A DNA stretch of 64,000 nucleotides from Dehalobacter sp. (lineage in GTDB: Bacteria > Bacillota > Desulfitobacteriia > Desulfitobacteriales > Syntrophobotulaceae): NCBI GenBank assembly GCA_023667845.1, contig JAMPIU010000125.1:1-64000 (forward strand), given 5' to 3'. Shown here piece after piece: positions 9,555 through 44,950 of this stretch. The notes beneath the pieces are model-generated. The model did no database searches. It was not told the DNA's origin and saw only the letters and a program-made list of their open reading frames with translations. A program made the translations under genes and the position numbers. Each line of letters begins with the position of its first letter. Position 1 is the stretch's first letter.

Positions 9555-10538
9555 CTATCCTTTTGCCAAATTCTCCTCCAGCAAAAAATCCATAGCTGCT
9601 CTTCTCAAAAGTTGGGTCTCCATCATCTTTAGCTCTCCGGACAGACCGGCTTCCTGATCATCTTGCCGGCTTTTCTTAAACTGTTCTTTTACCTGCTTCA
9701 TTTCTTCACTAGTAAGCCGAATCCCTTCCGCTTGAATCACTGCATCCAAGATTTTTTCTCCCAGAATTATTTTGGCAGCCTCTTCTTTACACTCAGCCAG
9801 CAACTCATCGGCCGTTATCTTCCTTTGCATTAAGTAATGAATGAGTTCCATGTCGTGGACGTCTTTAAGCTCCTCGGCAAATTTCCGGTATAAATTCTCT
9901 GCTGCTTGTTTTAAGGTCTCTTCATCGAATTCATACTTGCTTCCATCGGCCAGAGCTTGAAACACTTTTTCGATGTTGGCTGCGCGTGCTATTGCTTTTT
10001 TCTCTTGATTGATCTCTGCTGATAATAATTCTTTTAATTCCTGTAATGTTTTTACTCGTGGATCAATTTCCCGGATAGTGTCGTCTGTCAATTCCGGCTC
10101 TTTCATACGATATACTTTTACAATCTCGACGGAAAAGGTGATACGCTGCCCCCATAAGGCTTGGTATTCCAGTAAGACAGGTTGTATCGTGGTTTCAAAT
10201 ATCACTGTTTCACCCATCTTCTTGCCAAGCAGGTTGGCGGAGAAATCCTGTAAGACGTTCTCGTCACCTAATCTGAACTTAAAGCCTCTCTCCCTAAATT
10301 TGGGGACTGTCATACCATTTTCTGTTCCCTCAAAGTTTACGATGACGTAATCTCCGGGTTCGATTGGTTCATTACTTTTCTCGACCTGGATTTCGTCCAT
10401 TGATTTCCGAACATAATTGATGGCTTCATTAATTTCTTCTTCTTTGACGGATACATCAAAACGATTGACATTTAATCCTTTGTACTGTCCAAGTTCAAAT
10501 TGTTTCATTCCGTCTCTAACCTCCATGTTGACTGTCAC
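9555..10538 (-). CDS. rdhT: PceT-like trigger-factor-related chaperone
   Basis: A 327-aa protein related to the peptidyl-prolyl isomerase and C-terminal domains of trigger factor. It lacks the ribosome-binding N-terminal domain. PceT of Desulfitobacterium binds the Tat leader of PceA and helps cofactor-dependent folding before export. The FKBP-like core (about residues 40-150, containing 'GDYVIVNFEGTENG') precedes a helical C-terminal arm. The likely start is GTG at 10538 with GGGGAGG nine bases upstream. A second in-frame ATG (MKQFELGQ) has its own GGAGGTT, so two starts are possible. It is almost identical to the rdhT at 18.2-19.2 kb. Confidence 0.9.
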   Translation of the reverse strand: MTVNMEVRDGMKQFELGQYKGLNVNRFDVSVKEEEINEAINYVRKSMDEIQVEKSNEPIEPGDYVIVNFEGTENGMTVPKFRERGFKFRLGDENVLQDFSANLLGKKMGETVIFETTIQPVLLEYQALWGQRITFSVEIVKVYRMKEPELTDDTIREIDPRVKTLQELKELLSAEINQEKKAIARAANIEKVFQALADGSKYEFDEETLKQAAENLYRKFAEELKDVHDMELIHYLMQRKITADELLAECKEEAAKIILGEKILDAVIQAEGIRLTSEEMKQVKEQFKKSRQDDQEAGLSGELKMMETQLLRRAAMDFLLEENLAKG

Positions 10539-10566: not shown

Positions 10567-10734
10567 TCAGCGATCGGCCCGGATAATGCCAATTGATTGA
10601 AGCATTACAATCACGTGAGCTGCTCCCAGTATCAGTATTAAAGCTATAAATAACAGATCTTTTATTTTCAGGCTTTGTCGCTTTTCCATTGGTTCCATCT
10701 TTGATTCCCTATTCGGTTCCACATTTGTTTCCAT
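10567..10734 (-). CDS. Small conserved membrane protein overlapping rdhC (cassette I)
   Basis: A 55-aa ORF that I read from the sequence: an acidic/Met-Pro-rich start (METNVEPNRESK), then KIKDLLFIALILILGAA (one transmembrane span) and the invariant tail VIVMLQSIGIIRADR. The ATG follows GGGGTGAG at five bases. Its first 67 nt lie out of frame inside the 3' end of rdhC. The same ORF exists in all four PceA-type cassettes, always between rdhC and rdhT, with a near-identical C-terminus and many silent changes. I know of no named Rdh accessory protein that it matches. Inference: a single-span accessory subunit of the dehalogenase or of RdhC. Confidence 0.72.
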   Translation of the reverse strand: METNVEPNRESKMEPMEKRQSLKIKDLLFIALILILGAAHVIVMLQSIGIIRADR

Positions 10735-11924
10735 ACTCTCACCCCGTTATTCCGCCAACGATTGAGTAAGTTGAGTATAAAGCCGACTGGACAGAAGAAT
10801 TGACAATAAAACCGGCTGATAAACAGACTAATGAAAATAAATACCGGCAGCATTAACCACATGACCCATACGGCTTTAAACAGGAAGAATGCACTAAACG
10901 GCTGGTAATCCAATGTCCCATAGTCCCCTAAGAAGGTTCCAAGCATGATGGCCACCCATAGGATGGTCGGCGCAGCCAGCTTCAATTTCTTGGTGACTTG
11001 CGGGGAAATCCCCAGGGATTTAAAACCTGCTGCTTTATTAATGACCTCCTGGGCTGCTCCGAAAGGGCAAATCCATGCACAGTAAATGTTCTTTCCTAAA
11101 AGAACAATGAAGCCCAAAGATCCAACAATAAGGACGTACCATCCCACATTGGTCAAACCGGGTATTTGCAGCGTTATTAATGAGAATAAATTACTAGCTG
11201 CCACGAATTCTTTTACGAAAAATCCCATAACACCAAATGCTGCTAAAAGTATCCAAACCCGGAGCCGCACGAGTTTCTTGATCAAAGCTGCAGCGAGCGC
11301 GATGATATAGATCATTATCATCGCGAAATCCTGCCGGTTAAATTGATAAGTGTCATAAGGATTGCTCCAGCGCGTATGAAAGAATTGCGATGCTACATAG
11401 GCAGTCCCTTTGTTGACAGCCTCGGCTACCGCATGAGACGATACCGTGGAACCGGTTACCCGGTCAATGTAATTATTGGTTTGTCTTTCATCCAGATAAC
11501 CAGAATATCCTGAAGCCCCTCCTAAATAAATAGGTTCTTTGACGGAGAGATTCTTAAATTGATCAAACAATTTTCCGGTATAGAGTCTCTCAAAAAAGAT
11601 GGGAGTCTCACCCTGCTGGGTAATGATCACTTTTTCCACCAAACCTTCTTGGTTGATGATGGTCATGGCTTCTATGCGGGATTGATATCCTACTGCGGAG
11701 TCACAAACGGCATAATACTTCTCTCCTGCAGCATCAACTTGATAAGCACGTTGGGTTCCTATGATTTTCTCAATAGATGTGGCACCAGGAACGTTCTGCT
11801 GAATAACCGCCTCGTAATCAATGGTTTTACTCGTCCAAAAGATACCGTAAAAGATCGCCGCTATTGCAGTTATGAATAGTATAGTCAAATAGTAAGACTC
11901 CAGGTCTCTCTTTTTACTAGCCAT
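10668..11924 (-). CDS. rdhC: PceC-like membrane flavoprotein (NosR/NirI-type)
   Basis: A 418-aa RdhC. An N-terminal span is followed by an extracytoplasmic FMN-binding domain with the covalent flavinylation-type motif VTGSTVSS (about residues 161-168). Several membrane spans follow, and two polyferredoxin-like motifs, CxxxCP (CAWICPFG, about 283; CQFFCPVG, about 374). Similar proteins carry electrons across or along the membrane. A role in electron transfer to RdhA or in regulation is proposed but unproven. The C-terminal tail is Trp/Asn/Gln-rich and is encoded by short imperfect repeats shared out of frame with the overlapping small ORF. The 3' half is almost identical in DNA to the copy at 34.0-34.6 kb. 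Confidence 0.92.
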   Translation of the reverse strand: MASKKRDLESYYLTILFITAIAAIFYGIFWTSKTIDYEAVIQQNVPGATSIEKIIGTQRAYQVDAAGEKYYAVCDSAVGYQSRIEAMTIINQEGLVEKVIITQQGETPIFFERLYTGKLFDQFKNLSVKEPIYLGGASGYSGYLDERQTNNYIDRVTGSTVSSHAVAEAVNKGTAYVASQFFHTRWSNPYDTYQFNRQDFAMIMIYIIALAAALIKKLVRLRVWILLAAFGVMGFFVKEFVAASNLFSLITLQIPGLTNVGWYVLIVGSLGFIVLLGKNIYCAWICPFGAAQEVINKAAGFKSLGISPQVTKKLKLAAPTILWVAIMLGTFLGDYGTLDYQPFSAFFLFKAVWVMWLMLPVFIFISLFISRFYCQFFCPVGFILNLLNRWRNNGVRVWKQMWNRIGNQRWNQWKSDKA

Positions 11925-16077: not shown

Positions 16078-17328
16078 ATGAAAAATTATTTGCTGGTTAA
16101 AAAGATAATAATATTTCTGGCAATTATTGCTCTACTTGGAGCTTGGTTTATTTCAGACAAACAAAAAACGAATGAAAACACAAATAACGCCAAACAATAT
16201 GCTGGGGTATTAAAGCAAGCTTATCCGCAAGCAGAAGAATTCGAAAAAAGCTCCTCAGACCCTTTAACTTTTTCGGCAAAAGATTCAAATCAAAAAGAGA
16301 TTGGTTTTGTAGCTTTTGGAGAAGCCAATGGTTATGGTGGTCCTCTGAAGATTGCAGTAGGTATAGATTTAAACGGACAAATTATTAGCACAATTATTGC
16401 CGAACAAAAAGAAACCCCTTCTTATTTAGAAGAAGTCCTAAGTAAAGGTTATTTGGATAAATTCAAGGATGTAAAAGTAACCTCCCCTTTTGTTCTGGGA
16501 ATAGACCTTAACGGAGTCTCAGGTGCCACCATCTCCTCAAAAGCGATAGCTAAAGCTATTCGCAACGCATCCCATGCTGTCGGCAAAAAGGATCTGAACC
16601 TTGAAGTCAAAGAAATAAGTGAACCATGGAATTTTGGAGCAGCAGAAGCTGCCGTAATGTTGATATTTATTTGTGCTATTATTTTTTCTTTCTTCACTAA
16701 GCAATTGAATCTTCTCTTTAAAAGGAAATTAAATCTTCGATTTCCAATTATTCTTTGTAGTATGATAGTGCTTGGCTTTTGGCTCGATCGTCCAATTTCT
16801 ATGCAATATTTGACAGGCGCGATGTTAGGTTTCTTTCCTTCAATACGGGAAAATTTTTTATGGTATTTAATTTTATTCACAGGAATTGGTTTGCCATTAT
16901 TCACAGGAAAAAATATTTATTGCTTTTGGGTTTGCCCCTTTGGCGGTTTGCAGGAAATAATCAATAAACTTTGTGGGGTAAAATACCGTTTAAAAATTGC
17001 CAAAATCTTTAAAGTAACACGTTATTTCTTGCTATGGCTTGGTATTCTTCTAGTAATAATCAATAACAATCCGGCTTCAGGAAATATTGAACCGTTTGGA
17101 ACAGTATTTGGCTTCAAAGGAACAGGATTTGATTGGATAGAACTTATCATCGTGTTGGTAATAGCGGTATTTAGCTATAGGTTCTGGTGCAATTTCTTAT
17201 GCCCGATAGGTGCAGTAATGGACTTGTTAAGTAACGCAAACCATATGGTTACAAAAAAAATGTTGCAACTATATAATAGAACAGTTGTTCAAAAATCAGA
17301 AACTATCTCTTCAAGTCCCAAACAATAA
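16078..17328 (+). CDS. rdhC: RdhC-like membrane flavoprotein (NosR/NirI-type)
   Basis: A 416-aa protein: N-terminal membrane span, FMN-binding domain with the canonical flavinylation motif SGATISS (about residues 149-155), then multiple spans and two CxxxCP motifs (CFWVCPFG about 282; CNFLCPIG about 378). It shares architecture, but limited sequence, with the four PceC-like proteins. It closes the plus-strand B-A-C operon. The C-terminus lacks the W/N/Q-rich repeat tail, and no overlapping small ORF is visible downstream. Confidence 0.9.
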   Translation: MKNYLLVKKIIIFLAIIALLGAWFISDKQKTNENTNNAKQYAGVLKQAYPQAEEFEKSSSDPLTFSAKDSNQKEIGFVAFGEANGYGGPLKIAVGIDLNGQIISTIIAEQKETPSYLEEVLSKGYLDKFKDVKVTSPFVLGIDLNGVSGATISSKAIAKAIRNASHAVGKKDLNLEVKEISEPWNFGAAEAAVMLIFICAIIFSFFTKQLNLLFKRKLNLRFPIILCSMIVLGFWLDRPISMQYLTGAMLGFFPSIRENFLWYLILFTGIGLPLFTGKNIYCFWVCPFGGLQEIINKLCGVKYRLKIAKIFKVTRYFLLWLGILLVIINNNPASGNIEPFGTVFGFKGTGFDWIELIIVLVIAVFSYRFWCNFLCPIGAVMDLLSNANHMVTKKMLQLYNRTVVQKSETISSSPKQ

Positions 17329-18199: not shown

Positions 18200-19183
18200 T
18201 TATGGTCTTGCCAAATTCTCCTCCAGCAAAAAATCCATAGCTGCTCTTCTCAAAAGTTGGGTCTCCAACATCTTTAGCTCTTCGGACAGACCGGCTTCCT
18301 GATCATCTTGCCGGCTTTTCTTAAACTGTTCTTTTGCCTGCTTCATTTCTTCACTAGTAAGCCGAATCCCTTCCGCTTGAATCACTGCATCCAAAATTCT
18401 CTCTCCCAGAATTATTTTGGCAGCCTCTTCTTTACACTCAGCCAGCAACTCATCGGCCGTTATCTTCCTTTGCATTAAGTAATGAATGAGTTCCATGTCG
18501 TGGACGTCTTTAAGCTCCTTGGCAAATTTCCGGTATAAATTCTCTGCTGCTTGATTTAAGGTCTCTCTATCGAATTCATACCTGCTTCCATCCGCCAGAG
18601 CTTGAAACACTTTTTCGATGTTGGCTGCGCGTGCTATTGCTTTTTTCTCTTGATTGATCTCTGCTGATAATAATTCTTTTAATTCCTGTAACGTTTTTAC
18701 TCGCGGGTCAATTTCCCGGATCATATCGTCTGTCAATTCCGACTCTTTCATACAATATACTTTTACAATCTCGACGGAAAAGGTGATTTGCTGCCCCCAT
18801 AAGGCTTGGTATTCCAGTAAAACAGGTTGTATCGTGGTTTCAAATATCACTGTTTCACCCATCTTCTTGCCAAGCAGGTTGGCGGAGAAATCCTGTAAGA
18901 CGTTCTCGTCACCTAATCTGAACTTAAAGCCTCTCTCCCTAAATTTGGGGACTGTCATACCATTTTCTGTTCCCTCAAAGTTTACGATGACGTAATCTCC
19001 GGGTTCGATTGGTTCATTACTTTTCTCGACCTGGATTTCATCCATTGATTTCCGAACATAATTGAGTGCTTCATTAAGTTCTTCTTCTTTGACGGATACA
19101 TCAAAACGATTGACATTTAATCCTTTGTACTGTCCAAGTTCAAATTGGTTTATCCCGTCTCTAACGTCCATGTTGTCTGCCAC
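18200..19183 (-). CDS. rdhT: PceT-like trigger-factor-related chaperone (cassette II)
   Basis: A 327-aa protein almost identical to the cassette I copy, including long identical DNA stretches, which indicates recent duplication or gene conversion. FKBP-like core plus helical arms, as expected of PceT. In this copy the internal ATG used by homologues (MKQFELG) has become ATA (INQFELG) and its ribosome site is changed, so translation must begin upstream, at GTG 19183 after GGGGAG or at the ATG of MDVRDG. Confidence 0.9.
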   Translation of the reverse strand: MADNMDVRDGINQFELGQYKGLNVNRFDVSVKEEELNEALNYVRKSMDEIQVEKSNEPIEPGDYVIVNFEGTENGMTVPKFRERGFKFRLGDENVLQDFSANLLGKKMGETVIFETTIQPVLLEYQALWGQQITFSVEIVKVYCMKESELTDDMIREIDPRVKTLQELKELLSAEINQEKKAIARAANIEKVFQALADGSRYEFDRETLNQAAENLYRKFAKELKDVHDMELIHYLMQRKITADELLAECKEEAAKIILGERILDAVIQAEGIRLTSEEMKQAKEQFKKSRQDDQEAGLSEELKMLETQLLRRAAMDFLLEENLARP

Positions 19184-19210: not shown

Positions 19211-19390
19211 TTAACGATCCGCTCGGATAATACCGACTGATTGAAGCATTACGATAATGTGAGCTGCTCCTAGTATCAGTATTAAAGCTATAAATAACAG
19301 ATCTTTTATTTTTAGGCTTTGTTGCTTTTCCATTGGTTCCATATTCGGTTCCATCTTTGGTTGCATATTCGGTCCCCTATTTGTTTCCAT
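19211..19390 (-). CDS. Small conserved membrane protein overlapping rdhC (cassette II)
   Basis: A 59-aa ORF. The N-terminus is a Met-X-Pro repeat (METNRGPNMQPKMEPNMEPM), followed by KIKDLLFIALILILGAA and IIVMLQSVGIIRADR. GGGGTGAG lies five bases before the ATG. Seventy-nine nt overlap rdhC out of frame. Compared with cassette I, the repeat region differs in length while the membrane span and tail are preserved. Confidence 0.72.
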   Translation of the reverse strand: METNRGPNMQPKMEPNMEPMEKQQSLKIKDLLFIALILILGAAHIIVMLQSVGIIRADR

Positions 19391-20577
19391 ACTCTCACCC
19401 CATTATTCCGCCATCGATTGAGTAAGTTGAGTATAAAGCCGACTGGACAGAAGAATTGACAATAAAACCGGCTGATAAACAGACTGATGAAAATAAATAC
19501 CGGCAGCATTAACCACATGACCCATACGGCTTTAAATAGGAAGAATGCACTAAACGGCTGGTAGTCCAATGTTCCATAGTCGCCTAAGAAGCTTCCAAGC
19601 ATGATGGCAGCCCATAGGATGGTCGGCGCAGCCAGCTTCAATTTCCTGGTGACTTGCGGGGAAATCCCCAGGGATTTAAAGCCTGCAGCTTTATTAATAA
19701 CCTCCTGGGCTGCTCCAAAAGGGCAGATCCACGCACAGTAAATATTCTTACCTAAGAGCACAATAAAGCTCAAGGCTCCAACCATAAGTACGTACCATCC
19801 TATATTGGTCAAGCCCGGTATTTGCAGCGTTATTAAGGAGAACAAATTACTGGCTGCCACAAATTCTTTTACGAAAAAACCCATAACACCAAATGCTGCT
19901 AAAAGTATCCAAATCCGTAACCGCACAAGTTTCTTGATGAAGGCTGCAGCGAGTGCGATGATATAGACCATTATCATGGCAAAATCCTGTCGGTTAAATT
20001 GGTAACTGTCATAGGGATTGCTCCAGCGCGTATGAAAGAATTTGGATGCGATATACGCAGTTCCTTTGTTGACAGCTTCAGCTACAGCATGAGACGATAC
20101 GGTAGAACCGGTTACCCGGTCAATGTAATTATTGGTTTGTCTTTCATCCAGATAACCGGAATATCCTGAGGCTCCTCCAAGATAAATGGGTTCTTTGACG
20201 GAGAGGTTCTTAAATTGATCAAACAATTTTCCGGTATAAAGTCTTGCAAAGAAGATGGGGGTCTCGCCCTGCTGGGTAATCATGACTTTTTCCACGAAGC
20301 CTTCTTGGTTGACGATGGTCATGGCTTCTATGCGTGATTGATAGCCTACGGCCAAGTCACAAACGGCATAATACTTCTCTCCTGCAGTATCAACTTGATA
20401 AGCACGTTGGGCCCCGATCATTTTCTCAATAGATGTGACACCAGGAATGTTCTGCTGAATAACCGCCTCGTAATCAACGGTCTTACTCGTCCAAAAGATA
20501 TCGTAAAAGATCGCCGCGATTGCAGTTATGAATAGTACGATCAGATAGCAGGATTCCAGGTCTCTCTTTTTAGCCAT
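19312..20577 (-). CDS. rdhC: PceC-like membrane flavoprotein (cassette II)
   Basis: A 421-aa RdhC with the same layout as the cassette I protein: N-terminal span, FMN-binding domain with VTGSTVSS, membrane core, CAWICPFG and CQFFCPVG motifs. The C-terminus (NQRWNRIWNQWKSNKA) carries one more W-N repeat unit than cassette I, matching the longer N-terminus of the overlapping small ORF. It follows rdhB by 124 bp, containing the conserved stem-loop. Confidence 0.92.
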   Translation of the reverse strand: MAKKRDLESCYLIVLFITAIAAIFYDIFWTSKTVDYEAVIQQNIPGVTSIEKMIGAQRAYQVDTAGEKYYAVCDLAVGYQSRIEAMTIVNQEGFVEKVMITQQGETPIFFARLYTGKLFDQFKNLSVKEPIYLGGASGYSGYLDERQTNNYIDRVTGSTVSSHAVAEAVNKGTAYIASKFFHTRWSNPYDSYQFNRQDFAMIMVYIIALAAAFIKKLVRLRIWILLAAFGVMGFFVKEFVAASNLFSLITLQIPGLTNIGWYVLMVGALSFIVLLGKNIYCAWICPFGAAQEVINKAAGFKSLGISPQVTRKLKLAAPTILWAAIMLGSFLGDYGTLDYQPFSAFFLFKAVWVMWLMLPVFIFISLFISRFYCQFFCPVGFILNLLNRWRNNGVRVWKQIGDRICNQRWNRIWNQWKSNKA

Positions 20578-23651: not shown

Positions 23652-24602
23652 CTATCTAACTAAATTAGTATTTACTAAAAAATCCATAGCTTTTTTGCGC
23701 AAATATTGGTTCTCTAGAGCATCGATATCATTCGTCAGATCAGCGGGTTGCTCATTTTTCAGGTTTTTCATCCATTGTTCTTTTAAATCATTAATTTCTT
23801 TGACAGTAACTTGAATTCCTTCTGCTTGAATTACAGCGTCCAAAATTTTCTCTCTGAGAATTTTTCTCGCAGCCTCTTCCTTGCACTCAATCAATAACTC
23901 GTCGGCAGATATCTTTCTTTGCAGTAAGTAAACCATGAGTTCTGTATTGTGAAATTCCTTAAGCTCTCTGGTAAATTTCAAATATAAATCCTCTGCTTTT
24001 TGATTCAAGATTTCTTCATCGAATTCATACTTGCATTGTTCTGCCAGAGCGGCCATCACTTTATTAATATTAGCCACATGTGCTCTGGTCCTTTTTTCTA
24101 TAAGAATTTTATTTTCCAGCATTTTTTCAAATTCCTGCAGCGTTTTTACCTTTGGCTCAATCTCTTGTATGGTTTCCTCTGTCAATTTCGGCTTTTCAAT
24201 CACAAATACTTTAACAATTTCGATGGAGAATGTGATCTCGAGCCCCCATAAGGCTTGAAATTCAATTAAGACAGGTTGTATTGTCGTATCAAAAACTACA
24301 GTGTCGCCCATTTTCTGTCTGAGCAGCTTAGCTGAGAACTCCGGCAAAACATTATCGTCACCCACCTTGAATTGTAAACCATCTTCTTTCACTTTCGGAT
24401 AAGGCATACCCGTTTCTGTTCCAACAATATTAATGATTACAGTATCCCCTGTTTCGATTGGCTCATTCCTTTTCTCGACCTGGATTTCGTCCAAAGATTT
24501 AAGAATATAGTTAATTGCTTCATCAAGCTCTTCCTCTTTAACTGATACATCAAAGCTTCCGATATTTAATCCTTTATACTTTCCAAGTTCAAATTGTTTC
24601 AT
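23652..24602 (-). CDS. rdhT: PceT-like trigger-factor-related chaperone (cassette III)
   Basis: A 316-aa PceT-like chaperone, more divergent than the other three. Translation starts at the ATG of MKQFELGKYKG, after TGGAGGTT. The upstream GTG used by other copies is out of frame here. FKBP-like core with GDTVIINIVGTETG near residue 43, followed by a helical arm. It lies between the small membrane ORF and the regulator. Confidence 0.9.
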   Translation of the reverse strand: MKQFELGKYKGLNIGSFDVSVKEEELDEAINYILKSLDEIQVEKRNEPIETGDTVIINIVGTETGMPYPKVKEDGLQFKVGDDNVLPEFSAKLLRQKMGDTVVFDTTIQPVLIEFQALWGLEITFSIEIVKVFVIEKPKLTEETIQEIEPKVKTLQEFEKMLENKILIEKRTRAHVANINKVMAALAEQCKYEFDEEILNQKAEDLYLKFTRELKEFHNTELMVYLLQRKISADELLIECKEEAARKILREKILDAVIQAEGIQVTVKEINDLKEQWMKNLKNEQPADLTNDIDALENQYLRKKAMDFLVNTNLVR

Positions 24603-24656: not shown

Positions 24657-24827
24657 TTAGCGATCCGCACGGATAATCCCAACCGATTGAAGCATTACAA
24701 TGACATGTGCAGCACCAAGCATGATGATCAAGCCGATCAATAACAGATCTTTCATTTTTAGCCTTTGTTGGTTTTCCATCTTTGGTTCCATATTCCGTTC
24801 CATAGTCGGTTCCATATTTGATTCCAT
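24657..24827 (-). CDS. Small conserved membrane protein overlapping rdhC (cassette III)
   Basis: A 56-aa ORF beginning MESNMEPTMERNMEPKMEN, then KMKDLLLIGLIIMLGAA and VIVMLQSVGIIRADR. The last 15 residues match the other copies although codons differ at many third positions (for example in the LIGLIIML region and the ADR end), the pattern expected of a translated ORF. GGGTGAGGG lies just before the ATG. Seventy-one nt overlap rdhC. Confidence 0.72.
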   Translation of the reverse strand: MESNMEPTMERNMEPKMENQQRLKMKDLLLIGLIIMLGAAHVIVMLQSVGIIRADR

Positions 24828-26026
24828 ACCCTCACCCCATTATTCCGCCAACGATTTAGTAAGTTGAGTATAAAGCCAACGGGACAAAAAAATTGGCAGT
24901 AAAACCGGTTAATAAACAGGCTGATGAAGATAAAAATGGGTAACATTAACCACATCACCCATACAGCTTTAAACAAAAAGAAAGCGCTAAAAGGCTGATA
25001 ATCCAAGGTTCCATAGTCTCCAACCCAGGTCCCCAGCATGATTGCAATCCATAGGATGGTCGGGGCGGCCAACTTCAGAATCCTGGTAACTTGCGGAGAA
25101 ATCCCTAAAGATTTAAATCCTGCGGCTTTGTTTAGAAACTCCTGTGCAGCTCCAAAAGGACAAACCCATGTACAGTAAATATTCTTCCCAAAGAGAACAA
25201 CAAAGCCCAACGATCCGACCATAATCACGTACCATCCTAAATTTGTCAAGCGGGGTATTTGTAACGTTACAATCGAGAACAGATTGTTTGCCGTCACAAA
25301 CTCTTTGACAAAGAAACCCATAACTCCAATAATGATTAAAAGCCACCAAATCCGAAAACGGGAGATTTTCTTTATAAAAGTTGCGATCAGCGCGACAAGA
25401 AAAACCACAATCATTGCTAAAGTCTTACTGTTCAATTGGTAAATGTCATAAGGGTTCGTCCATTGCTTATCAAAGAATTGAGATGCTATATACAAAGTCC
25501 CTTTGTTAACAGCTTCGGCAACAGCATGCGATGATACCGTTGAGCCAGTTACCCTGTCAATAAAATTTTCTGTTTGTCTTCTGTCCAGGAAACCGGAATA
25601 ACCATAGGCGCCTCCCAGGTAAATGGGCTCACCGAGAGAAAGGCTTTTAAATTGATCAAAAAATTTCTGGCTATAAAGCCTGTCAAAAAACACAGGCGTT
25701 TCGGCATGCCGGGTAACAATGACTTTCTCTACCAAACCCTTATCGGTGAGAATTGTCATGGTTTCAATCCGAGATTGATATCCTACCGCTGAGTCACAAA
25801 CTGCATAATACCGTTTCCCAGCAGCATCAATCTTATAAGCGCGTATAGTTCCTACGATTTTTTCAATGGACGTAATTTCTGGTACGTTCTGCCTGATAAG
25901 TGCAGGATAATCAATTGTTTTTTCGGCAAAACAGGCGCCATAAATGATTGCTGCAATCGCCGTAAAGAATAATGCCATTAAATAATAGGACTTAATATCT
26001 CTCTTCTTCCTCTCCACTTTTTTCAT
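24758..26026 (-). CDS. rdhC: PceC-like membrane flavoprotein (cassette III)
   Basis: A 422-aa RdhC, the most divergent of the four: FMN domain with VTGSTVSS, membrane core, CTWVCPFG and CQFFCPVG motifs. The C-terminal tail repeats W-N-x-I/L (VWNQIWNRLWNGIWNQRW), the other reading frame of the small ORF's Met-Glu-Pro repeat. Confidence 0.92.
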   Translation of the reverse strand: MKKVERKKRDIKSYYLMALFFTAIAAIIYGACFAEKTIDYPALIRQNVPEITSIEKIVGTIRAYKIDAAGKRYYAVCDSAVGYQSRIETMTILTDKGLVEKVIVTRHAETPVFFDRLYSQKFFDQFKSLSLGEPIYLGGAYGYSGFLDRRQTENFIDRVTGSTVSSHAVAEAVNKGTLYIASQFFDKQWTNPYDIYQLNSKTLAMIVVFLVALIATFIKKISRFRIWWLLIIIGVMGFFVKEFVTANNLFSIVTLQIPRLTNLGWYVIMVGSLGFVVLFGKNIYCTWVCPFGAAQEFLNKAAGFKSLGISPQVTRILKLAAPTILWIAIMLGTWVGDYGTLDYQPFSAFFLFKAVWVMWLMLPIFIFISLFINRFYCQFFCPVGFILNLLNRWRNNGVRVWNQIWNRLWNGIWNQRWKTNKG

Positions 26027-32839: not shown

Positions 32840-33817
32840 TTATTGCGCTAGATTTGCCTCTAACAGAAAGTCCATCGCTTTTCTACGTAAGCATTGGACA
32901 TCTTGTATATTGTTTTCTCTTGACAGTTCTACTTTCTCTGCTTTCTCACGGTTCTGCAACCGGACTTTCTCATAGAGCATTTCTTTATCCGTAAGCTGAA
33001 TTCCTTCTGCCTTGATCACTGCATCTAAAATTTTCTCTCCAAGAATTCTTTTTGAAGCTTCTTCCTTACACTCGTTCAGCAGCTCATCAGATGACAGCTT
33101 CCTTTGGATTAAGTAAACAATGAGTTCCATGTTGTAAACGGCCTTAAGCTCCTCAACAAACTTTCGATACAAATCCTCCGCTGCTTCGACTAATATTTCC
33201 TGCTCGAATTCATATTTGCAGTTCTCAGCTATTGCCCCAATTACTTTACTCATATTAGCGATTTGTGCTTTATTTACTTTTTCCTGAAAAATTTTATTCT
33301 TTAATATGATTTCAAATTCCTGCAACGTTTCTACCTGCGGATCAATTTCCCGGACAATATCGTCAGTTAATTCCGGCTCTTTAATACGATATACTTTTAC
33401 AATCTCGACCGAAAAAGTGATCTGTTTTCCCCATAAGGCTTGGTATTCCAGTAAATCAGGCAGTACCGTCGTTTGAAATATCACCGTTTCGCCCGTCTTC
33501 TTACCAAGCAGGTTGGTGGAGAATTCCTCTATAAAGTTTTCATCACCCACTCTGAACTTAAAGCCCCTGTCCCTTAATTTGGGGACTATCTTGCCATTCT
33601 CCGTTCCTTCAAAATTTACGATGACATAATCTCCGGTTTCGATCGGTTCATCATTTTTTTCGACCTGGATTTCGTCCAAAGATTTCTTAACATAATTAAG
33701 CGCTTCATTAAGTTCTTCTTCTTTGACGGAGACATCAAAACGATCGACGTTTAATCCTTTGTATTGTCCAAGTTGGAATTGTTTCATCTCGCTTCTAACG
33801 TCCATGTTGACTGCCAT
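32840..33817 (-). CDS. rdhT: PceT-like trigger-factor-related chaperone (cassette IV)
   Basis: A 325-aa PceT-like chaperone. N-terminal part (to about residue 160) is very close to cassettes I and II; the C-terminal helical arm diverges, as expected if it recognises a different Tat leader. The likely start is GTG/ATG at 33817 (AVNMDVRSEMKQFQLG region) with GGGGAGGAAG upstream; an internal ATG at MKQFQLG is also possible. Confidence 0.9.
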   Translation of the reverse strand: MAVNMDVRSEMKQFQLGQYKGLNVDRFDVSVKEEELNEALNYVKKSLDEIQVEKNDEPIETGDYVIVNFEGTENGKIVPKLRDRGFKFRVGDENFIEEFSTNLLGKKTGETVIFQTTVLPDLLEYQALWGKQITFSVEIVKVYRIKEPELTDDIVREIDPQVETLQEFEIILKNKIFQEKVNKAQIANMSKVIGAIAENCKYEFEQEILVEAAEDLYRKFVEELKAVYNMELIVYLIQRKLSSDELLNECKEEASKRILGEKILDAVIKAEGIQLTDKEMLYEKVRLQNREKAEKVELSRENNIQDVQCLRRKAMDFLLEANLAQ

Positions 33818-33845: not shown

Positions 33846-34025
33846 TTAACGGTCTGCCCGGATAATGCCGACTGATTGTAGCATTACGATGATGTGAGCT
33901 GCTCCGAGTATCAGTATTAAGGCAATAAATAACAGATCCTTTATTTTCAAGCTTTGTTGCTTTTTGCTTTGTTCCATCCTTGGTTCCCTATTCGGTTCCA
34001 TTTTTGAACCCACATTTGTTTCCAT
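33846..34025 (-). CDS. Small conserved membrane protein overlapping rdhC (cassette IV)
   Basis: A 59-aa ORF: variable basic/Met-Pro start (METNVGSKMEPNREPRME), KIKDLLFIALILILGAA span and IIVMLQSVGIIRADR tail. GGGGTGAA precedes the ATG. Seventy-nine nt overlap rdhC out of frame. The stop codon lies 29 bases before the rdhT start, so coupling to rdhT translation is possible. Confidence 0.72.
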   Translation of the reverse strand: METNVGSKMEPNREPRMEQSKKQQSLKIKDLLFIALILILGAAHIIVMLQSVGIIRADR

Positions 34026-35215
34026 ACTTTCACCCCGTTATTCCGCCAACGATTGAGTAAGTTGAGTATAAAGCCGACTGGACAGAAGAATTGACAATAA
34101 AACCGGCTGATAAATAGACTGATGAAAATAAATACCGGCAGCATTAACCACATGACCCATACGGCTTTAAACAGGAAGAATGCACTAAACGGCTGGTAAT
34201 CCAATGTCCCATAGTCCCCTAAGAAGGTTCCAAGCATGATGGCCACCCATAGGATGGTCGGCGCAGCCAGCTTCAATTTCTTGGTGACTTGCGGGGAAAT
34301 CCCCAGAGATTTAAAACCTGCTGCTTTATTGATAACCTCCTGGGCTGCTCCAAAAGGGCAGATCCACGCACAGTAAATGTTCTTGCCTAAGAGAACTATA
34401 AAGCTCAATGTTCCACCCATAAGCACGTACCATCCCAGATTGGTGAAGCCGGGTATTTGCAGCGTTATTAATGAGAACAAATTACTGGCTGCCACAAATT
34501 CTTTTACGAAAAAACCCATAACACCAAATGCTGCTAAAAGTATCCAAATCCGCAACCGCACGAGTTTCTTGATGAAGGCTGCAGCGAGCGCGATAATATA
34601 GATCATCATCATCGCCAAATCCTGCCGGTTAAATTGAAAACTGTCATAGGGATTGCTCCAGCGCGTATTGAAGAATTTGGATGCGATATACGCAGTCCCT
34701 TTGTTGACAGCCGCCGCTATAGCATGAGACGATACGGTAGAACCGGTTACCCGGTCAATGTAATTATTGGTTTGTCTTTCATTCAGATAACCGGAATATC
34801 CTGAGGCCCCTCCTAAATAAATAGGTTCTTTGACGGAAAGGTTTTTAAATTGATTAAACAGTTTTCTGGTATAAAGTCTCTCAAAAAAGATGGGAGTCTC
34901 ACCCTGCTGGGTGATCATCACTTTTTCCACGAAGCCTTCTTGGTTGACGATGGTCATGGCTTCGATGCGGGATTGATATCCTACTGCCGAGTCACAGACG
35001 GCATAATATTTCTTTCCTGCAGCATCAACTTGATAAGCACGTTGGCCCCCGATCATTTTCTCGATGGATGTGACACCAGGAATGTTCTGCTGAATAACCG
35101 CCTCGTAATCAATGGTTTTACTTGTCCAAAAGATACCGTAAAAGATCGCCGCTATCGCAGTTAAGAAAAGTACAGCCAAATAATAGGTCTCCGGGTTCTT
35201 CCTTTTCCCTTCCAC
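33947..35215 (-). CDS. rdhC: PceC-like membrane flavoprotein (cassette IV)
   Basis: A 422-aa RdhC: N-terminal span, FMN domain with VTGSTVSS, membrane core, CAWICPFG and CQFFCPVG motifs. Its last third is almost identical in DNA to cassette I (only a few differences over the 300 bp from about 34,036), although the two cassettes are 20 kb apart and their rdhA genes differ clearly. The C-terminal W/N/Q repeat tail is longer than in cassette I. Confidence 0.92.
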   Translation of the reverse strand: MEGKRKNPETYYLAVLFLTAIAAIFYGIFWTSKTIDYEAVIQQNIPGVTSIEKMIGGQRAYQVDAAGKKYYAVCDSAVGYQSRIEAMTIVNQEGFVEKVMITQQGETPIFFERLYTRKLFNQFKNLSVKEPIYLGGASGYSGYLNERQTNNYIDRVTGSTVSSHAIAAAVNKGTAYIASKFFNTRWSNPYDSFQFNRQDLAMMMIYIIALAAAFIKKLVRLRIWILLAAFGVMGFFVKEFVAASNLFSLITLQIPGFTNLGWYVLMGGTLSFIVLLGKNIYCAWICPFGAAQEVINKAAGFKSLGISPQVTKKLKLAAPTILWVAIMLGTFLGDYGTLDYQPFSAFFLFKAVWVMWLMLPVFIFISLFISRFYCQFFCPVGFILNLLNRWRNNGVKVWKQMWVQKWNRIGNQGWNKAKSNKA

Positions 35216-40922: not shown

Positions 40923-42092
40923 TTAATAAATACCATACTCCATGACAAATTTGTTTACGGCAATAATGTTTTCTGCTTTAGCATCCTGCGGCGCGATAAG
41001 TTCCTTATCGGTACCAAAAATGTATCCTCCGCCAGGTGCCAGATTATCCAATAATTCTTTTGCTTTGGCAATACATTCTTCCTTGGTGCCATATTGCAGT
41101 AAAGTCGCCGGGAAAAGTCCGATAAGACACATGGTATCTTGGAGCTTTTGTTTCATTTCTTTGGGATCTCCGTGTTCGAACCAGCCCATTGTTTTCTTAG
41201 CCGGAAGTTCTTGAAGATGATTGTAAAAACGTGACCAATCGCCTTCGTAGAACGGTATTACATAGACATTGTAGGCAGCAAAAAATTCCATGATCATTTT
41301 AAACGACGGCCAGTAATACTTGTCGAAGTCCGCTACTTTCAGCATAGTAGGTAAATGCAGCGGTAATAGAAGGACTTTCGGATTTGGGCTCGGCGGTGCC
41401 ATGTGCACCTGACCCATGCCAAGCCTGATGACCAACGGTGTGAACGCTTGGATAGCCTCGGCAAATTCTGCCGGACGACGGCGAATGTCCCCGAATGCTC
41501 CTTTAATGCCCCTGAAGAAATCCGCAATCCAATCCATTGGGTGTAAAATAATGCCGTCAAATAGCACGGGCATTCCTTGCGCGGCAAGCGAACCCTTAAT
41601 GGCTCCCTTTTGGGCGCCAAACATCCCAAACTTCATGGCGCCTTTGGCAAATGCTAAATCCCTCATCGGTGAATCCTTAGCCAGCTCGGCGTATTTTCGC
41701 GGCAACACCTTCTCTACCAAGAACCTGAACGGATCTTTGCTGAATTCCGGATATTCATCATCTTTCATTATCTGGGCAGATTCGTCGGAATACTGGACAA
41801 TATTGCTGTCACTTAAGTAGTGAAATGCCTTACTCCCCAACGCCTGATAAACGCCGCCGGGTCTGGCAAAAGGCTGATGAAGCATATCCATCGGAATATC
41901 ATTCGCCATCTTCAGCATTGCTTTACCGCATTTATCTATGTCCCAATTCGTCTCAGAATCAGTATATCCTCCATAGTAAGCACCCCAAGTCCCATAAGTA
42001 CCTAGCACTGGGACGCGATCCGCTTGTTCCAACCTTAAAGTTTTGAAGACACGGTCCAAACGTTCTTGATAAGTATTCATTACTTCACTCAT
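40923..42092 (-). CDS. URO-D family corrinoid-dependent methyltransferase
   Basis: A 389-aa URO-D-fold methyltransferase: 'LRLEQADRVPVLGTYG' at about residues 19-34, and a C-terminal LAPGGGYIFGTDKELIAP (about 350-367). It follows its corrinoid protein gene by three bases and is followed by the conserved small ORF. It is a close paralogue (roughly nine in ten residues by eye) of the gene at 43.1-44.3 kb, showing tandem duplication, and a more distant relative of the gene at 0.4-1.6 kb. Methyl donor unknown; O- or N-demethylation are possibilities. Confidence 0.82.
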   Translation of the reverse strand: MSEVMNTYQERLDRVFKTLRLEQADRVPVLGTYGTWGAYYGGYTDSETNWDIDKCGKAMLKMANDIPMDMLHQPFARPGGVYQALGSKAFHYLSDSNIVQYSDESAQIMKDDEYPEFSKDPFRFLVEKVLPRKYAELAKDSPMRDLAFAKGAMKFGMFGAQKGAIKGSLAAQGMPVLFDGIILHPMDWIADFFRGIKGAFGDIRRRPAEFAEAIQAFTPLVIRLGMGQVHMAPPSPNPKVLLLPLHLPTMLKVADFDKYYWPSFKMIMEFFAAYNVYVIPFYEGDWSRFYNHLQELPAKKTMGWFEHGDPKEMKQKLQDTMCLIGLFPATLLQYGTKEECIAKAKELLDNLAPGGGYIFGTDKELIAPQDAKAENIIAVNKFVMEYGIY

Positions 42093-42095
42093 TGA

Positions 42096-42731
42096 TCAAC
42101 CCACCCATCCTTGGCATATTTTTACACCTTCAGCGGCGTTTGTCGAGAAGGCGTCGGCTCCTATGCTTTTGCAAACAACCTCATTAACCGGTACTCCGCC
42201 GATAATCACCTTGACTGAACTTCTGAAGCCTGCTTCATTAAGCGCATCAACCGTTTCCTTCATACTATCCAGCGCCAAAGTCAATACGCCGCTTAATCCC
42301 ACGATATCAGGGTTAACCTCTTTAACCTTGTCCACGATCTGGCTGACCGGAACATTAATCCCCAGGTCGATTACCTCAAAATTTGCGGCTTCAACCATTG
42401 ATCTGAATATATTTTTGCCTATGTCATGAAGATCTCCAAAAACTGTAGCCAGGACAATTTTTCCGCCTTTTGCTGAGGAACCTGCACTTAAAGCCGGTTT
42501 GAGCTTGTCCATTACACTTTGCAACACTTCCCCGGCAAAGACCAAGTCTCCGATAAAGTACTCGCCCGAATCATAACGTTCACCTACGAGTGTCATACCT
42601 TGCTGACAGGCTTTAACAACTTCTTGAGCTGCGGCATTGTCGTCTTTGCTTAGTACTTCATCAATAGCCTTGTTTAACACGTCTTCGTCCAAATCGGACA
42701 TCGCTTGAGTCAGGACTTTCAAATCCACCAC
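42096..42731 (-). CDS. Methyltransferase cognate corrinoid protein
   Basis: A 211-aa corrinoid carrier with helical cap and B12-binding domain (GDLHDIGKN, about residues 99-107; GLSGVLTLAL; VIIGGVPV). First gene of the second module; its stop is three bases before the methyltransferase ATG. It differs from the third-module copy by one missing residue (DDNAAAQ versus DDNAAEAQ) and a few substitutions. The first 370 bp of the two genes are almost identical. Confidence 0.9.
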   Translation of the reverse strand: MVDLKVLTQAMSDLDEDVLNKAIDEVLSKDDNAAAQEVVKACQQGMTLVGERYDSGEYFIGDLVFAGEVLQSVMDKLKPALSAGSSAKGGKIVLATVFGDLHDIGKNIFRSMVEAANFEVIDLGINVPVSQIVDKVKEVNPDIVGLSGVLTLALDSMKETVDALNEAGFRSSVKVIIGGVPVNEVVCKSIGADAFSTNAAEGVKICQGWVG

Positions 42732-43135: not shown

Positions 43136-44308
43136 CTATTTATAAATCCCATACTCCATGACGAATTTATTTACGGCGATGATGTTTTCCGCCTTACCAT
43201 CCGCTGGTGCAAGAAGTTCCTTATCGGTACCAAAAATGTAGCCTCCGCCTGCCATACCGTCGATTAATTCTTTCGCTTTGGCAATACATTCTTCCTTGGT
43301 CCCATATTGCAGCAGAGTTGCTGGGAAAAGTCCGATGATGCACAGGGTGTCTTTGAGTTTATCTTTAAGCTCTTTGGGATCGCCATGTTCAAACCAGCCC
43401 ATTGTTTTCTTGGCCGGCAATTCTTGAAGATGATTGTAATAACGCGACCAATCGCCTTCGTAGAACGGTATCACATAGACATTATGGGCAGCAAAAAATT
43501 CCATAATCATTTTAAACGACGGCCAGTAAAACTTATCAAAATCCGACGTTTTAAGCATCGGAGGCAAATGCAGCGGGAAAAGAAGAACTTTTGGGTTTGG
43601 TTTCGGCGGTCCCATGTGCACCTGACCCATGCCAAGCCTGATTACCAACGGTGTAAACGCTTGGATGGCCTCCGCGAATTCCGCCGGACGACGGCGAATA
43701 TCCATAAATGCGCCTTTAATGCCCCGGAAGAAATCAGCAATCCAATCCAATGGGTGTAAGATAATGCCATCAAATAACAAAGGCATTCCGTATTGCGCGG
43801 CAAGCGCGCCCTCAATGCCTCCCTTTTGGGCACCATACATTCCAAACTTCATGGCGCCTTTGGCGAATGCCAAATCCTTCATCGGGGAATCCTTAGCCAG
43901 TTCGGTATACTTTCGCGGCAAGACCTTTTCTACCAAAAACTTGAACGGATCTTTGGTAAATTCAGGATATTCATCATCTTTCATTATTTGGGCAGACTCA
44001 TCAGAATACTGTACGATATTGCTATCACTTAAATAGTGGAATGCACTGCTCCCCAACGCCTGATACACGCCACCCGGCCTGTTGTAAATCATATGGATCA
44101 TATCTACTGAAAGCTCATCTGCTACTTTCATTAGGGCTTTACCGCATTTATCCGTATCCCAATTGGTTTCTGCATCGGTATACCCTGCAAAGTAAGAACT
44201 CCAAGTTCCGTAAGTAGCCAGCACCGGAACGCGGTCTGCTTGTTCCAATCTTAAGGTTTTAAAAACACGGTCCAAACGTTCTTGATATAGATTCATAACT
44301 TCACTCAT
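43136..44308 (-). CDS. URO-D family corrinoid-dependent methyltransferase
   Basis: A 390-aa paralogue of the 41-kb methyltransferase (same 'LRLEQADRVPVLATYG' start region and GGGYIFGTDKELLAP end). Differences between the two concentrate in the N-terminal third (about residues 40-75), which may alter the donor specificity. It follows its corrinoid protein gene by three bases and precedes the 47-aa ORF. Methyl donor unknown. Confidence 0.82.
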   Translation of the reverse strand: MSEVMNLYQERLDRVFKTLRLEQADRVPVLATYGTWSSYFAGYTDAETNWDTDKCGKALMKVADELSVDMIHMIYNRPGGVYQALGSSAFHYLSDSNIVQYSDESAQIMKDDEYPEFTKDPFKFLVEKVLPRKYTELAKDSPMKDLAFAKGAMKFGMYGAQKGGIEGALAAQYGMPLLFDGIILHPLDWIADFFRGIKGAFMDIRRRPAEFAEAIQAFTPLVIRLGMGQVHMGPPKPNPKVLLFPLHLPPMLKTSDFDKFYWPSFKMIMEFFAAHNVYVIPFYEGDWSRYYNHLQELPAKKTMGWFEHGDPKELKDKLKDTLCIIGLFPATLLQYGTKEECIAKAKELIDGMAGGGYIFGTDKELLAPADGKAENIIAVNKFVMEYGIYK

Positions 44309-44311
44309 TGA

Positions 44312-44950
44312 TCAACCCACCCATCTCTGGCATATTTTTACACCTTCAGCTGCGTTTGTCGAAAAGGCATCGGCACCTATGCTTTTACATACATTCTCAT
44401 TAACGGGTACGCCGCCGATAATAACCTTAACTGAATTTCTAAAGCCTGCTTCATTAAGCGCATTAACTGTTTCTTTCATACTATCCAGCGCTAAAGTCAA
44501 TACGCCGCTTAAGCCCACAATATCAGGGTTAACCTCTTTAACCTTGTCCACGATCTGATTAACCGGAACATTAATCCCCAGGTCGATTACCTCAAAATTT
44601 GCGGCTTCAACCATTGATCTGAATATATTTTTGCCTATGTCATGAAGATCTCCAAAAACTGTAGCCAGGACAATTTTTCCGCCTTTTGCTGAGGAACCTG
44701 CACTTAAAGCCGGTTTGAGCTTGTCCATTACACTTTGCAACACTTCCCCGGCAAAGACCAAGTCTCCGATAAAGTACTCGCCCGAATCATAGCGTTCACC
44801 TACGAGTGTCATACCTTGCTGACAAGCTTTAACAACTTCTTGAGCTTCTGCGGCATTGTCGTCTTTACTTAGTACTTCATCAATAGCCTTGTTTAGCACG
44901 TCTTCGTCCAAATCGGACATTGCTTGAGTCAGGACTTTCAAATCCACCAC
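44312..44950 (-). CDS. Methyltransferase cognate corrinoid protein
   Basis: A 212-aa corrinoid carrier with GDLHDIGKN (about residues 100-108), GLSGVLTLAL and VIIGGVPV. First gene of the third module. Near-identical to the second-module protein. The promoter regions of the two modules share a block (TCTATACAAGTAAA.ATATCATTTGC, near 42,810 and 45,040) that gives TATAGA as a -10 candidate on the minus strand. Confidence 0.9.
   Translation of the reverse strand: MVDLKVLTQAMSDLDEDVLNKAIDEVLSKDDNAAEAQEVVKACQQGMTLVGERYDSGEYFIGDLVFAGEVLQSVMDKLKPALSAGSSAKGGKIVLATVFGDLHDIGKNIFRSMVEAANFEVIDLGINVPVNQIVDKVKEVNPDIVGLSGVLTLALDSMKETVNALNEAGFRNSVKVIIGGVPVNENVCKSIGADAFSTNAAEGVKICQRWVG

Follow-up and report, generated by a model that had tools for sequence, protein, structure and literature searches.

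What does the short open reading frame between rdhC and rdhT in the PceA-type cassettes of Dehalobacter encode, and does its product belong to a neighbouring protein or stand on its own? The question arises from four cassettes in the window, the 64,000-nucleotide stretch of Dehalobacter sp. DNA analysed here. In each of them an earlier note had described a frame of 55-59 aa with a GGGGTGA ribosome-binding site, a start inside rdhC in another frame, a variable N-terminus and a tail ending GIIRADR, and had argued that the frame is no product of chance and has a function, as a subunit or as an accessory factor.

The small ORF in the window and in related genomes

All four frames were read as described and lie on the minus strand, which the earlier note had not given; the plus strand at these positions is interrupted by stops. 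With stop codons included, the small ORFs occupy 10567..10734, 19211..19390, 24657..24827 and 33846..34025 in cassettes 1 to 4, encoding 55, 59, 56 and 59 aa, respectively. Each starts within a PceC-type rdhC, in the -1 frame relative to that gene. The four rdhC genes, also on the minus strand, are located at 10668..11924, 19312..20577, 24758..26026 and 33947..35215, and their last 67, 79, 70 and 79 nt overlap the small ORF; the gene of cassette 1 has Fer4_5 and FMN_bind matches. On the same strand, rdhT, encoding a PceT-like chaperone, follows at 9555..10538, 18200..19183, 23652..24602 and 32840..33817, starting 28, 27, 54 and 28 nt past the small ORF. The GGGGTGA Shine-Dalgarno sequence is found at 4-nt spacing before the start in all four cassettes.

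The predicted products share a variable Met/Glu/Pro-rich N-terminus, a basic stretch, one hydrophobic span and a tail of the form VMLQS(V/I)GIIRADR, of which GIIRADR is indeed invariant among the four. The N-terminus is as variable as had been reported and is partly made of 12-bp units. In cassette 3, TRF detects 4.6 copies of a 12-bp tandem repeat inside the overlap (24774..24828, minus strand), the units of which are in register with both frames (MEPN / WN-rich) and keep both of them open. AlphaFold2 predicts a single helix at residues 24-47, with a pLDDT of about 80-90.

The small ORF gave no Pfam or NCBIfam match above the curated cut-off, and a PDB sequence search returned no family; weak matches to EscU, EssA, DUF2116, a light-harvesting beta chain and a HEAT protein were set aside as hydrophobic-helix noise. 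Identity with the RdhB/PceB membrane anchor, which has three TM helices and is encoded beside rdhA, was rejected because the small ORF has one helix only; besides it, each of the four cassettes has an rdhB-like ORF. Also beside rdh genes of the window, three pairs of corrinoid-binding-type and UroD-like proteins are encoded (390-2284, 40923-42731, 43136-44950 (-)), which resemble the RdhU/RdhV genes of D. hafniense DCB-2 by position and type (PMC9888536).

A profile built from the four small ORFs identified one more copy, the fifth, on a different contig of the genome that the window comes from; it lies at C206:289176-289319 and starts with GTG. Of four other genomes in the genus, three also gave matches to this profile. 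A profile of ten small ORFs added one genome of the neighbouring family (G420), with no further match at E <= 0.001 among 83 genomes of the class. Scans of genome-contig, viral-contig and plasmid collections, in which near relatives may be missing, yielded no match. The small ORF is present at every PceC-type rdhC obtained by protein search that is not cut by a contig end; including two further copies at contig ends, the total reaches 13 loci in five genomes of two families. Across these copies the start codon (GTG in one), the Shine-Dalgarno sequence and the stop are kept, the overlap with rdhC is 64-79 nt where measurable, and rdhT is the next gene, lying 95 nt away from one copy.

The copy of Dehalobacter restrictus PER-K23 (G181) is located at 2,409,137 and the RdhA of its operon at 2,411,420. 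By position this RdhA fits Dehre_2398 (PceA), and its operon the canonical pceABCT. Its small ORF product consists of 47 aa, METESRSIETQKKGRTRDLVFTLLILIFAVAHFVVMLQSVGILRADR, and is identical in another Dehalobacter genome (G206). Trypsin would cut it into a very hydrophobic peptide of 27 residues, two peptides of six residues and fragments of at most three.

Substitutions among the copies follow the pattern of a translated frame, as had been expected from the window alone. Over the 22 codons that every copy has and that lie outside rdhC, pairwise comparison of 12 PceC-type copies counted 252, 59 and 789 differences at codon positions 1, 2 and 3. For the same codons, NG86 dN/dS was 0.05-0.22 in most pairs with measurable dS, with one pair at 0.45 and dS saturated in many; these values are far below 1, the level that the earlier note had named as refuting a coding frame. 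As for the frameshifts it had likewise asked about, one of the 13 copies has a broken tail. In that copy (G255:C12:284917-285054; L039, L085), RADR has given way to unrelated sequence following an insertion and the frame measures 71 aa; the copy is possibly decaying. A second group of small ORFs at rdhC ends (35 aa, 14 copies) is likewise under constraint, with a pN/pS of 0.36. Comparative evidence is strong that the small ORF is a real gene, with a frame of the translated type under selection and a probably translated product.

Separate and fused helices across RdhC loci

Among 79 RdhC loci in the order, a separate one-helix ORF is found at 52, a fused C-terminal helix at 20 and neither at seven. 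Separate ORFs were defined as one-helix ORFs starting -100 to +100 nt from the rdhC stop, and fused helices as an extra hydrophobic helix past the second CX3CP motif of RdhC. Two loci, L089 and L135, were reset by hand from separate to neither, the candidates being TTG-start frames that run antisense into a neighbouring regulator gene (L089) or across a terminator-like hairpin (L135). Under a stricter rule (ATG/GTG start, Shine-Dalgarno, 30-70 aa, hydropathy), 47 of 59 non-fused rdhC genes are accompanied by a small ORF versus 2 of 206 other genes, drawn from 400 kb of D. restrictus stretches; the rdhC paralogues are not independent, and a p-value for this comparison is not to be taken literally. 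This control rate, together with the substitution pattern of a translated frame, places the small ORF beyond chance. In other families of the phylum, outside the order, a separate ORF bearing the Gln motif described below is found at five of seven RdhC loci; at L201 the RdhC locus is cut by the contig end, and at L208 (G111:C55) an RdhC-like gene is directly followed by a TatA-like ORF, not by a helix-7 ORF.

The two forms appear to be interchangeable. In a quick tree of the RdhC core, the fused or separate state changes at least four times, and closely similar helices occur in both states. The fused RdhC of L119, beside rdhA in Dehalobacter G206, ends NLKDVVFLVLISSIILMIVVNMFQIYLNR (fuller end KFEINLKDVVFLVLISSIILMIVVNMFQIYLNR), and its helix is nearly identical to the ORF MNVKMNLKDVVFLVLISSIVLLIVVNMFQIYLSR that directly follows the rdhC stop at L123, beside rdhA in another genus. 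By eye, the DNA of these two loci aligns across the junction, and both fall in one starred clade with L121 and L122, which are separate. The L119 fusion rests on one genome, and its small frame change could in principle be a sequencing error. In the CprC-like clade, a separate product, LLGAAYALTLILIG (L130), likewise resembles a fused end, AFAAAYLLTLALVI (L102). An rdhA gene is nearby for at least eight fused RdhC (L102, L115, L119, L120, L127, L131, L140, L145). Around the fused L136, L137, L144 and L147-L154, no rdhA turned up to a distance of about 5 kb, and these proteins therefore look like RdhC relatives outside organohalide respiration. With the tree taken as unrooted, a fused ancestor with repeated splitting is compatible with these data. 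At L139 (G000:C14:5558-6691), RdhC is followed by an 87-aa ORF with an N-terminal helix and a long Pro/Asp-rich C-terminal extension, which would lie outside.

Helix 7 is not universally needed, since seven of the 79 loci have neither form. These include the fifth rdhC of the window, which is not PceC-type (16078..17328, plus strand), and L090 of D. restrictus, 88% identical to it; for these two RdhC proteins the helix is possibly supplied in trans by neighbouring cassettes. L134 and L135 (G000:C143 and G255:C10) are RdhC genes lacking helix 7, with a terminator-like hairpin behind them; rdhA genes are close to the copy in G000.

Charges flanking the helix indicate a common orientation, with more K/R on the N side in 50 of 52 separate and 19 of 20 fused helices (N-in/C-out bias). 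RdhC is described as having six TM helices, the first of which is followed by an extracytoplasmic FMN domain (PMC5928378). The C-terminus of such a protein should be cytoplasmic, and a seventh helix would thus run from inside to outside, as the charges predict. Furthermore, in a subclass that includes PceC, D/E is found exactly 20 residues before a Gln in 15 of 16 clade representatives, fused and separate, versus 1 of 22 control helices, a motif (acidic-x19-Gln) that was defined after viewing the alignments. Among PceC-type rows, D is present in 10 of 11 (N in one) and Q in all 11, while the motif was not found in CprC-type and several other helices. As sequence evidence, comparisons of single helices are weak in general. 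An AlphaFold2 model of PceC (mean pLDDT 48) is too poor for packing.

A candidate seventh helix of RdhC and competing explanations

Taken together, the selected frame, its fixed position at the 3' end of rdhC, the natural fusions, the common orientation signals and the acidic-x19-Gln motif lead us to regard the microprotein, with good though incomplete confidence, as a detached and translationally coupled seventh helix of RdhC (PceC). According to this mechanism, the overlap of rdhC and the small ORF would couple their translation, so that the two proteins are made together, and the microprotein would insert N-in/C-out beside helices 1-6, in a complex with RdhC; the physical association is suggested by the natural fusions. 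The conserved Gln would then be placed at the outer end of the helix, near the extracytoplasmic FMN domain, and helix 7 might help to hold the membrane core of RdhC together or shape a site facing the quinone or FMN. A bolder version is put forward tentatively: RdhC may work as a seven-helix protein whose last helix was repeatedly split off as a coupled microprotein, with the acidic residue and the Gln, one at each membrane face, in the electron/quinone path to the outer FMN, and the microprotein may be an indispensable part, so far overlooked, of the way these bacteria respire organohalides. The general claim of the earlier note thus holds, as low dN/dS, conserved start, ribosome-binding site and position, and wide occurrence all speak for function; its unnamed accessory factor of PceA-type cassettes proved too unspecific in kind and too narrow in range.

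The strongest competitor, albeit an unlikely one, is a separate small regulator or assembly factor, acting for instance on the RdhA-RdhB complex or RdhT, that adjoins rdhC and is no structural part of its product. In PceC-type cassettes the small ORF has rdhC on one side and the chaperone gene rdhT on the other, a position that would suit such a factor, and the function of RdhC is itself unsettled (PMC8905343). However, the small ORF follows rdhC whatever gene comes next, be it rdhT, a cprD-like GroEL gene (L117 and L124) or others, and in 20 loci the equivalent helix is fused to RdhC. A role as a subunit of PceA2B2 also finds no echo in the cryo-EM account, since PceA and PceB are the only components named in the text of PMC10624902.

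Far less probable is a purely translational role, in which the ORF is translated chiefly to hand ribosomes on from rdhC to rdhT and its peptide does not matter. The overlap with rdhC and the short gap to rdhT in most copies are what such a coupler would use, but the peptide is conserved while synonymous sites are saturated, the ORF also occurs after rdhC genes that do not have rdhT next to them, and the copy 95 nt from rdhT does not fit. Slightly less credible still is a -1 ribosomal frameshift near the end of rdhC that would fuse PceC to the helix and yield no independent protein. The frame of the ORF and the existence of natural fusions agree with it, as does the A AAA AAG heptamer that canonical pceC (L040 / L010) has in its own frame where it overlaps the small ORF. 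A conserved slippery site was nevertheless rejected: the heptamer is confined to the canonical lineage (three near-identical rows of 11) and absent from the window copies. Moreover, every copy has an ATG or GTG start with a Shine-Dalgarno sequence at normal spacing, and there are many other RdhC loci whose ORF begins past the rdhC stop. That the frame is non-coding, open by chance or through constraint on rdhC, can practically be dismissed: its 5' part does lie within rdhC, where repeat units hold both frames open, but the conserved part is largely downstream of the rdhC stop and under strong purifying selection, a substitution pattern that refutes this reading, and the control genes seldom have such an ORF.

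Prior notice, significance and known systems

Earlier notice of the helix appears to be limited to a single dismissed locus. For D. hafniense DCB-2, the Fig. 7 legend of PMC9888536 places ACL18782, a 'short additional locus', in the interval from rdhC5 to rdhD5 and sees no evidence of a protein-coding role for it. Compared by position alone, it occupies the same place as the CprC-type helix-7 ORFs, after rdhC and before rdhD; its authors draw no link to other rdh operons or to fused RdhC. In the open-licence literature, the small ORF goes unmentioned in the passages found on PceC topology, pceABCT stoichiometry and the structure of PceA2B2, and earlier notice elsewhere is possible. PceC is reported to be present in much smaller amounts than PceA and to be missing from the PceA2B2 complex as isolated (PMC8905343, PMC10624902).

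A tiny, overlooked gene directly after rdhC in bacteria that respire chlorinated solvents thus appears to encode the missing last helix of RdhC, and it is present even in the classic tetrachloroethene operon pceABCT, where the role of PceC/RdhC is still unsettled. Published work treats PceC/RdhC as complete with six helices; should a partner subunit have been missing, studies of RdhC would need to be repeated with it. The few tryptic peptides of the canonical product could explain why proteomics missed the small ORF, and the helix-7 pattern provides an annotation rule for finding such ORFs.

Within the FMN-binding, NosR/NapH-like RdhC/PceC family (PMC5928378), the helix forms the C-terminal end of some members and is encoded separately at the end of rdhC in others. 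The family has been described with six TM helices, and a seventh, fused or separate, was not found in the portions of the literature searched. Small single-helix subunits of respiratory complexes are represented by CydX and CcoQ. By analogy, these likely work alike with the RdhC helix, each being a one-helix microprotein encoded beside a large membrane partner and made together with it. The likeness concerns the mode of working only, with no claim of sequence kinship, and the RdhC helix differs in being interchangeable with a fused segment of its partner.
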